DNA of 28,254 nucleotides, taken from IMG/VR virus record IMGVR_UViG_3300042868_005174, positions 1 through 28,254 of that record; one strand, given 5' to 3'. This DNA comes from a virus. Below the pieces are notes generated by a model, which was given only the letters and a program-made list of their open reading frames with translations, had not been told where the DNA came from and searched no databases. The position numbers and the translations under genes were made by a program. Positions within the stretch are counted from its first letter, which is position 1. Every line of letters starts with the position of its first letter. Below are positions 9,224-13,300 of the stretch, piece by piece.

Positions 9224-9297
9224 TAGTTTTGTTTAACTTTTGGGGTCTCAGCACGGTGATTTGGGAGACCTTCCTTGTAAAAAGTTAAACAAAACTA
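9224..9297. repeat. Nested perfect inverted repeat (18-bp outer arms)
   Basis: TAGTTTTGTTTAACTTTT (9224-9241) is an exact inverted match to 9280-9297. Inside it, GGTCTC (9244-9249) matches GAGACC (9265-9270), extendable by two G-U pairs in RNA, around a 15-nt loop. It lies in the non-coding divergence zone and is not followed by a T-run, so it is not a simple terminator. Candidate roles are a replication origin, a protein-binding site or a recombination end. Confidence 0.75.
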
Positions 9298-9338: not shown

Positions 9339-9586
9339 GGGGGTCAACACCCCTCAGCTCCCTTTCTCTGGTCAAAAAAACCCCAAAAACAGGGAACTAA
9401 CTATATAGAAATAGTAAAACCTTAACCTTTACTCATTAGTATTAAGGGTTATTACCGTTACTATAGAGAGTATAGAGGTATACATCTTCTTTATTCAGAA
9501 GATGTCCTTTCTATTGCTAAGCAAAACTTTTGCTTGGTCGACTATGCGACCTTAAATAGCCTTTAGGCATAGTGCGTCGCTCTATG
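9339..9586 (+). other. Hairpin-dense leader region of the rightward block
   Basis: The 581 bp between 9013 and 9593 carry no convincing gene. After the large inverted repeat, this part shows a series of perfect short hairpins: GGGGGT/ACCCCT (9339-9354), CCTTAA/TTAAGG (9420-9447), CTATA/TATAG (9461-9475), ACATCTTC/GAAGATGT (9482-9505), AAGCAAAA/TTTTGCTT (9519-9535), GGTCG/CGACC (9536-9551) and CATAG/CTATG (9568-9586). It precedes the first small gene of the rightward block. It could be a structured 5' leader or an origin region. Confidence 0.55.
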
Positions 9587-9593
9587 AGTGGGT

Positions 9594-9791
9594 ATGGACA
9601 AAATCACATTAATCGCATCTAATTACGACGAACAAACAGGAATATTCACTTTCTTCTTTCATAACACTGAAACTAATTGGTATTATGAAATGTCTTGTAG
9701 AAATTCATTTGGTACTAGGGATATGCATAGTAGAGTTCCTACAATGACAAGAGAAGAGTTTGTACGTATTGCAGGTGAAAGACTTGCTTAA
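9594..9791 (+). CDS. Small unknown protein (65 aa)
   Basis: Begins 'MDKITLIASNYDEQTGIFTF' and ends 'MTREEFVRIAGERLA'. The pattern suggests two or three beta strands followed by a helix. The ATG at 9594 is preferred over the GTG two codons upstream. No motif is recognised. It starts just after the hairpin series and is followed 3 nt later by a hairpin, so it may be expressed as its own short unit from the divergence zone. Confidence 0.6.
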   Translation: MDKITLIASNYDEQTGIFTFFFHNTETNWYYEMSCRNSFGTRDMHSRVPTMTREEFVRIAGERLA

Positions 9792-9794
9792 TTT

Positions 9795-9820
9795 AAGGGG
9801 GCTTAAGCTCCCTTTACTTT
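9795..9820 (+). terminator. Terminator-like hairpin after the 65-aa gene
   Basis: AAGGGGGC pairs with GCTCCCTT (one G-U pair) around TTAA, followed by the imperfect T-run TTTACTTT. Confidence 0.65.
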
Positions 9821-9849
9821 AATGCATCATTCTATCTTCACAAGGGATA

Positions 9850-10046
9850 GCAGTAGTAATTGAGCTAAGGGAAATCCTTAGTAATATCAGAGTAATATCT
9901 GATGTAGACAGTAGGATACTCTCTGAAATAAGTGAGTCCAAGAAACCTTAAGTGATTAGGTCTGTCATTACTACTGAATGCAGAGTGGAGTAAACTACAA
10001 GGTATGGTTATCCTACTAACACAACTAGAGGACCTTGTAGTTTTTT
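9850..10046 (+). ncRNA. Multi-branched structured RNA of unknown family
   Basis: No gene fits in 9792-10073. Instead a closing stem CAGTAGTAAT (9851-9860) / ATTACTACTG (9967-9976) encloses hairpins CTAAGG/CCTTAG (9865-9881) and ATCAGA/TCTGAT (9886-9903), plus an inner stem GACAG/CTGTC (9907-9911 with 9962-9966) that stacks directly on the closing stem. The inner stem holds two more hairpins (GG..ACTC/GAGTCC at 9914-9939; ACCT/AGGT at 9945-9961). A terminator hairpin follows at once. All helices are mutually compatible apart from minor contact at 9961. I do not recognise a known family. A trans-acting sRNA, a riboswitch-like element or a ribozyme are all possible. Confidence 0.6.
9993..10046 (+). 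terminator. Rho-independent terminator of the structured RNA
   Basis: AACTACAAGGT (9993-10003) pairs perfectly with ACCTTGTAGTT (10032-10042) around a 28-nt loop, followed by a T-run. Confidence 0.8.
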
Positions 10047-10073
10047 AATTGAACTAAACTAAACAGATATAAA

Positions 10074-10271
10074 ATGGAAAACTCTTTCGAACTCACTGAA
10101 GCACATACTATCATGCTAGATGGTATGGATGATGAACTTAAAGCTGCTGCTAAGCAAGTTGTTGACACCCTTGGTTACTATGTAGCTATTCAGTTCTTTG
10201 TGGCTGAATTTAAAATGACTGAAGATAACGCAAAAGTTCTTGCTGATCTTGGGTGCTATGTAATTGAGTAA
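10074..10271 (+). CDS. Small acidic unknown protein (65 aa)
   Basis: Begins 'MENSFELTEAHTIMLDGMDD' and ends 'NAKVLADLGCYVIE'. It is helical and acidic, with no known motif. The leader just upstream contains repeated ACTAAAC units and is A-rich with no clear Shine-Dalgarno site, as with other genes in this block. It starts 27 nt after the terminator of the structured RNA and is 3 nt from the next gene. Confidence 0.65.
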   Translation: MENSFELTEAHTIMLDGMDDELKAAAKQVVDTLGYYVAIQFFVAEFKMTEDNAKVLADLGCYVIE

Positions 10272-12795: not shown

Positions 12796-13147
12796 GGGGA
12801 AGAATTGGAATCGACAGGATTGATTGGGTTTAATGTTCACGCAGAGAGATGGTACTGTTCTCTTTAATCACGTATCAAAAAATTTAAACGGCAACGTTGA
12901 GAAATCAAACATGACTTTTGAGAGTGCTATTGAATTCGTTAGCGAATATCAAATGGCTGCCTAAGTCTCGGGGAGTCATCCCTTGGAACAGAAAATGGCA
13001 ATTTAAGGTTCTTGGACCTAAACCAAGTGGTGGAATTTGACTTCGGTCAACTCTTTACGGTGCAGAGTTTACTCAGTACTAAGCGTGTAAATAAAGACAT
13101 TGAATTGCGACTTTATCTGGACGGGGGTTCGAGGCCCCCCTTCTCCA
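12796..13147 (+). ncRNA. ssrA: Phage tmRNA (transfer-messenger RNA)
   Basis: It rescues stalled ribosomes by acting as tRNA-Ala and then as a short mRNA. The acceptor stem GGGGAAG (12796-12802) pairs with CTTCTCC (13140-13146), including the G3-U70 alanine identity pair. The 5' end has the conserved GGAATCGACAGG-type segment, and the 3' end has a T arm GGGGG-TTCGAGG-CCCCC. The tag frame most likely resumes at GGC 12890 and ends at TAA 12962-12964. The 24-residue tag starts GNVEKSN and ends SEYQMAA, compared with about nine residues in the usual Bacteroidota tags. CCA is not encoded. It is 352 nt, normal for a one-piece tmRNA. It is followed 6 nt later by a tRNA-like gene. Confidence 0.93.
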
Positions 13148-13153
13148 CAAAAT

Positions 13154-13262
13154 AGTCAGGTGGCGGAATTGGTAGACGCACATTAGAAAGTTCCTATAAA
13201 CCAATGGTTAATATCGTGGAGCTTTGGTATTAACATAACAGGTTCGAATCCTGTCCTGACTA
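13154..13262 (+). tRNA. Malformed tRNA-Leu-like gene, anticodon not assignable
   Basis: The acceptor AGTCAGG/CCTGACT (13154-13160 with 13255-13261), the D arm GCG-GAATTGGTAGA-CGC, and the T arm ACAGG-TTCGAAT-CCTGT are all intact and Leu-like. Length is 109 nt, over 20 more than normal. The middle folds as CATT/AATG with an 18-nt loop (13181-13206), then GTTAATA/TATTAAC with a 14-nt loop (13207-13234) as the variable arm. No 7-nt anticodon loop with U33 fits. It may be a pseudo-tRNA, a decoy, or a tRNA with a short insertion. Confidence 0.6.
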
Positions 13263-13300
13263 CAAAGGGCTGCCAACACAGTCCCGGTTCGCAAGGAACC
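13262..13300 (+). repeat. Stem-loop module, copy 1
   Basis: ACAAAGGGCTGCCAACACAG followed by TC, then a hairpin GGTTC/GAACC (13286-13300). GGGCTG pairs with CAG-T-CCC (13267-13285). It is repeated 120 nt downstream, and AAAGGG occurs further on in both copies. Confidence 0.5.

Follow-up and report, generated by a model that had tools for sequence, protein, structure and literature searches.

A candidate composite RNA in a phage genome: a twister-like core with a conserved domain on its P5 stem

The closest described counterparts of the RNA considered here are the twister ribozymes (Rfam twister-P1, RF03160, and the P3 and P5 types), whose architecture we have taken for comparison from a published review (PMC5408937), together with the twister sequence given in PMC12236469 (ctgtag-aa-cact-gc-caatg-ccgg-tcccaagc-ccgg-ataaa-agtg-ga-ggg-tacag, hyphens added in our analysis). 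What twister ribozymes do in nature is not established (PMC5052635). The same source records the suggestion that natural twister domains at P5 have a regulatory function, and that cleavage can be controlled by artificial aptamers inserted at this position.

The window, that is, the whole stretch of viral DNA analysed (28,254 nucleotides; IMG/VR record IMGVR_UViG_3300042868_005174), appears from its gene content to come from a relative of the crAss-like phages, encoding a Sak4-like annealing protein, a DnaB-like helicase and a thymidylate synthase. Our essential contention, which we hold with about as much doubt as confidence, is that one intergenic region of this phage specifies a composite RNA, in which a divergent twister-type self-cleaving core carries a domain (hereafter D) on its optional P5 stem. 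The features of the locus are as follows.

9536-9597, plus strand: pistol ribozyme (RF02679, 46.7 bits), a neighbour and not part of the element
9595-9791, plus strand: small ORF (open frame) between pistol and core
9815-9819, plus strand: 5' strand of P1, UACUU, pairing with GAGUA at 9988-9992; could reach 9813 and 9994
9820-9822, plus strand: UAA, present in all five core members, with a predicted cut between U9820 and A9821 (register from the published twister)
9823-9827, plus strand: 5' strand of P2, UGCAU, pairing with AUGCA at 9978-9982
9832-9850, plus strand: P4 hairpin, CUAUC-UUCACAAGG-GAUAG, with loop L4 at 9837-9845
9839-9841, plus strand: CAC strand of the T1 pseudoknot, pairing with GUG at 9985-9987
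9851-9976, plus strand: domain D, conserved in contigs L085 and L083, with double changes in 12 of 36 pairs
9851-9860 with 9967-9976, plus strand: closing stem of D, which is P5 of the core
9864-9882, plus strand: D hairpin 1
9887-9902, plus strand: D hairpin 2
9907-9911 with 9962-9966, plus strand: inner stem of D, enclosing hairpins at 9914-9939 and 9945-9961
9904-9966, plus strand: near-invariant core of D, GUAGACAGUAGGAUACUCUCUGA .. GUCCAAGAAACC .. GGUCUGUC
9977-9992, plus strand: 3' half of the core, consisting of A, P2' (9978-9982), GA (9983-9984), T1' (9985-9987) and P1' (9988-9992)
9992-10046, plus strand: terminator-like stem of this phage only, a perfect 12 bp (9992-10003 with 10032-10043) with six T (10041-10046)

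Part of this structure had been noticed before. The initial annotation described positions 9850-10046 as a single structured RNA of no known family, and the minimum free energy fold of that segment does contain the 10-bp closing stem, the 5-bp inner stem and the four hairpins that it listed, at the coordinates given above. The fold has an energy of -58.8 kcal/mol against a shuffle mean of -43.2 (z -3.9; 0 of 200 shuffles as low), and when 9790-10080 is folded the plus strand scores z -4.2 against z -3.0 for the reverse strand. No plausible plus-strand gene overlaps the segment, as had been said, and a search of Rfam 15 gave no match. The boundaries, by contrast, were misplaced; the element starts upstream at 9815 and closes at 9992, while a start at 9850 falls inside the P4 hairpin and leaves out the pseudoknot. 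The helices first described make up an accessory domain, mounted on P5 of a larger element with a resemblance to twister. The terminator that it listed is present, as a stem with a run of T, but its inclusion in the conserved RNA is ruled out by the sister phage L002, which is 98.5% identical to the window over 9794-9991 and rejoins it at 10056, and which has between these points about 305 unrelated bases in place of 65. The terminator is therefore lineage-specific and lies outside the conserved RNA. The replacing stretch of roughly 300 bases (L002 4664-4966) itself folds strongly (z -4.8) without a match, and is possibly another structured RNA.

Two diverged homologues of D were found, in L083 and L085, by a scan with an 18-base string from its core, and three distinct lineages were compared, the contigs being metagenomic fragments. 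In L083 and L085 the layout runs from the closing stem through UGA, hairpin 1, AAUA, hairpin 2 and GUA to a stem, GACAG/CUGUC, around the hairpins GGA-UA-CUC..GAG-UCC and ACCY..RGGU and the joiner AAGAA. In the alignment 97% of cells are paired, against 30-39% when the partner is slid by 1-3 columns. Lack of covariation had been named in the initial annotation as an observation that would tell against a structured RNA, and the double-sided changes in a third of the pairs (12 of 36) are the opposite; the suggestion of ribozyme-like or riboswitch-like complexity is upheld by a fold that is kept with covariation and absent from Rfam 15. Compensatory changes are concentrated in the outer helices, L083 substituting other complementary bases in the closing stem and in parts of hairpin 1, while the inner stems contain one variable pair only and the inner core is nearly invariant; across the three lineages positions 9904-9966 differ only in hairpin-loop length, one P5-like pair and one loop base. 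Such a pattern is that of a functional core under conservation, with helices around it that can be exchanged for one another.

A covariance model of D (R1) was run on 1.9 Mb of loci, 62 whole phage records and 393 Bacteroidales genomes and matched only four contigs (the window, L002, L083 and L085), so that D is rare among the sequences searched. Named phages and plasmids contained no copy of D, nor did the 393 Bacteroidales genomes in a search that had no positive control, and pattern scans of viral and bacterial genome collections returned known members and chance matches in coding sequence only. When all members were compared with Rfam at gathering and permissive thresholds, only chance matches fell on the element; RAGATH-7 in L085, with 9.4 bits and an E-value of 9.5, is at chance level. 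The FMN aptamer, the hairpin ribozyme and the bulged-G motif were considered as possible likenesses of the D core and dropped for poor fit.

The flanks of D, 9815-9850 and 9977-9992, constitute a second element that had been missed. The lead to it was the end of a further relative, L181 (the contig of L005), where the same flanks surround another insert, and the core is now seen in five diverged examples with unrelated inserts: window/L002, L181, L004, L083 (at a second locus, on the minus strand near 2030) and L145. In all five lineages, again metagenomic contig fragments, UAAUGCAYCA is followed by a hairpin of 5 bp whose loop is UUCNNAAGG. Next comes a long and variable stem between CAG and CUG, and after it ARYGCA-GA and a triplet able to pair with three bases of the hairpin loop; ARYGCA-GA is kept throughout, and G9983 within it is the candidate active-site G. 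With an artificial GAAA loop in place of the long insert and one bulged base of L083 left out, 92% of cells pair, compared with 24-54% in slid controls, and nine pairs change on both sides. The pseudoknot T1 is 100% paired and two of its three pairs covary over the five members, as CAC/GUG in the window, CCC/GGG in L181, L083 and L145, and CCA/UGG in L004. Four of the five P4 pairs covary in the same set, with the loop kept, and P2 has five pairs (96% of cells paired), the outermost of which covaries from U-A to C-G. P1 is seen in the window, L002 and L004, and not in L181, L083 or L145 (55% of cells paired). A descriptor of the core order, run on both strands of 4.3 Mb of redundant locus sequence, gave 25 distinct matches, four of them members, and a 4-bp P1 only at the window locus (shared with L002) and in L004. 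The core was not found in named phages, or in the 393 Bacteroidales genomes by pattern search. A second core copy begins at L181 19977-20000 (TTAATGCACCACAACTC) and is cut off by the end of the contig.

This core has the twister order of P1, an unpaired nucleotide and AA with the cut between them, P2, the P4 hairpin, P2', GA, the T1 strand and P1'. It also shares a loop with U-NNN-AAG (U(U)NNNAAG in its members) and a three-pair T1 pseudoknot, an A at the putative cleavage site preceded by an unpaired nucleotide, a G right after P2' (both UAA and GA in five of five), and an optional P5 stem able to carry extra domains. There are also differences. P2 has four Watson-Crick pairs in twister but five in the core, where the fifth covaries. 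L4 retains U-NNN-AAG but is longer by one U, and the pair that closes P4, C-G or U-A in the core, is reversed relative to the invariant G-C that closes twister L4, a loop which in addition has a U-A trans pair. T2, formed in twister by a conserved GC in L2 with two L4 bases, is reduced to one pair at best; a single invariant C-G pair is possible in all five members and the GC dinucleotide is absent. P1 was not found in three of the five, and the window core has a conserved domain of 126 nt on P5. The Rfam twister models matched no core member, even at an E-value of 10, and a search of eight phage records with RF03160 (twister-P1) gave one match of 13.7 bits, elsewhere than the element. We have not filed the core as a twister because the defining features tested, an Rfam match and a four-pair P2, were not found; it appears from its sequence to be divergent and twister-like, and may work like a twister without being a formal member of the class.

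All members of the element are intergenic and lie on the same strand as the neighbouring genes. In the window, L002 and L003 the slot has the same order, a pistol ribozyme, a small ORF that differs in all three, and the core, of which L003 has the 5' part only. The pistol thus adjoins the core in a phage gene cluster, and the pair brackets a gene of changing identity among relatives. The pistol copies (window 9536-9600, L002 4264-4329, L003 5029-5097) have the 3' end GG/UAUGG, and the predicted pistol cut, between G and U at the stroke, falls one base before the AUG of the small ORF, which would yield a near-leaderless mRNA. RF02679 matches at 9536-9597 only and not at 9815-9992. Rfam also matches a tRNA and a tmRNA in the window, the latter (12796-13150, tag GNVEKSNMTFESAIEFVSEYQMAA) being conserved in L003. 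Window 13157-13264, L003 8265-8373 and L181 19825-19928 in addition hold genes resembling tRNAs in which the anticodon arm is enlarged or interrupted; the window copy is missed by ARAGORN and Rfam, and in the copy of L181 the insert measures 32 nt. At window 9224-9297, GGGGTCTCAGCACGGTGATTTGGGAGACC is surrounded by a perfect inverted repeat of 18 bp that is conserved in L002, L003 and L082.

In proposing how the composite RNA might act, we note that the window P1 (UACUU/GAGUA) leaves exactly one unpaired U before AA, from which a cut between U9820 and A9821 is predicted. An early operon would be transcribed on the plus strand, and the core would fold through P2, P4 and T1 and then cut its own strand at this position, parting the upstream mRNA (ORF 9595-9791) from a 3' RNA of ~225 nt that would run from A9821 to the terminator and carry D. 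The mRNA, with a 5' end probably made by the pistol, would end just past its own stem-loop (9795-9814). The downstream RNA would have its 5' end set by the cut and, in the window phage, its 3' end set near 10046 by the terminator. D could then be the working part of this small RNA, or a control on cleavage; self-cleavage and RNA release are predictions, and so is any role of D.

Conservation of both folds, covariation of T1 and several stems, and differing combinations of D and core are direct observations, and the last of these bears on how the two parts are related. In the window and L002, D sits on the core. In L083 it is free, with a separate core carrying another insert ~1.9 kb away, and the cores of L181, L004 and L145 bear inserts other than D. 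L085 keeps D in a scaffold with the 3' half of the P4 region only (the remnant AAGGGTGARCAGTTGTAA matches L004 at 17 of 18 positions; 0 of 500 shuffles), the UAA-P2 part being gone and the 3' flank showing no significant similarity; a clean deletion within the core was considered for this contig, but the alignment supports no more than the kept half of P4. These combinations indicate that D is maintained independently of the core and that P5 acts as a place where domains dock. Repeated GGGTGGGA motifs occur around D, in L083 (3900-4200 and 4803-4814) and near D in L085.

A possible though less likely account is that the RNA is a structured small RNA that does not cleave, the core being a scaffold for stability, derived from a twister or resembling one, and D the functional part, acting in trans or binding protein. 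The failure of the Rfam twister models is consistent with this, as are the lack of P1 in three of five core members, the terminator that closes the unit in the window phage and the retention of D in L083, where it has no core, and in L085, where the core is broken. Should P1 be truly absent from those three members, their cores probably do not cleave, and the role common to all may be non-catalytic. However, the putative catalytic positions (UAA, and GA after P2') and T1 are kept in five of five members, and a scaffold would not need them. We consider it unlikely that the RNA is a natural allosteric ribozyme, in which D would sense a ligand or protein from its position on P5 and switch self-cleavage of the core, so controlling the release of RNA or mRNA; a sensor role for D is an option suggested by analogy with other P5 domains.

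Also unlikely, in our view, is a riboswitch or attenuator acting in cis, in which D would sense a ligand and the terminator at 9992-10046 would control the downstream gene. The order in the window, an aptamer-like conserved core and then an intrinsic terminator, would suit such a device, and nine bases of the D core (AGTAGGATA) complement the terminator loop (p about 0.05), but this complement is not conserved and we have set it aside. The terminator itself is absent from L002, and in L083 and L085 no terminator was recognised immediately behind D; no known aptamer class was matched and no Rfam match recurs. The downstream genes, moreover, are not the same among members, and in L082 a homologue of the downstream gene occurs with no copy of the RNA, which disfavours an obligatory leader. 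That the conservation is not RNA-based at all, and reflects instead a short coding region or an element acting as DNA, for example a recombination site, is very improbable. D and core do occur in varied contexts and one plus-strand frame is open through D in the window for about 43 codons, but this frame lacks a start codon, stops before the conservation does and is interrupted in L085 by an indel of 10 bases, and the D core shows no silent changes (a coding D was rejected on these grounds). A plus-strand RNA is indicated both by the constant orientation along neighbouring genes and by pairs such as the one that is G-U or G-C at the foot of hairpin 1.

Our preferred reading, a twister-type core bearing D, would if active be a tangible example of a phage transcript being divided into units by ribozymes, and the element could serve in trimming phage messages or in releasing a small RNA. 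Since Rfam misses the element, more such variants probably exist. The neighbouring pistol lies ~220 bases upstream and has the same transcript direction, but it is unrelated in sequence and fold, a neighbour and not a relative. The HDV-like theta ribozymes of gut phages (PMC10879173) are similar in that they are encoded in phage genomes where cleavage would define an RNA end; they have another fold, however, and lie beside tRNA 3' ends, whereas the window element follows a small ORF. Engineered twister aptazymes (PMC5052635) likewise attach a structured domain at P5 of a twister-type core, but these are artificial and use known aptamers, while D is natural and has no assigned ligand; an active element would be a natural counterpart to the aptazymes that have been built on twister P5.
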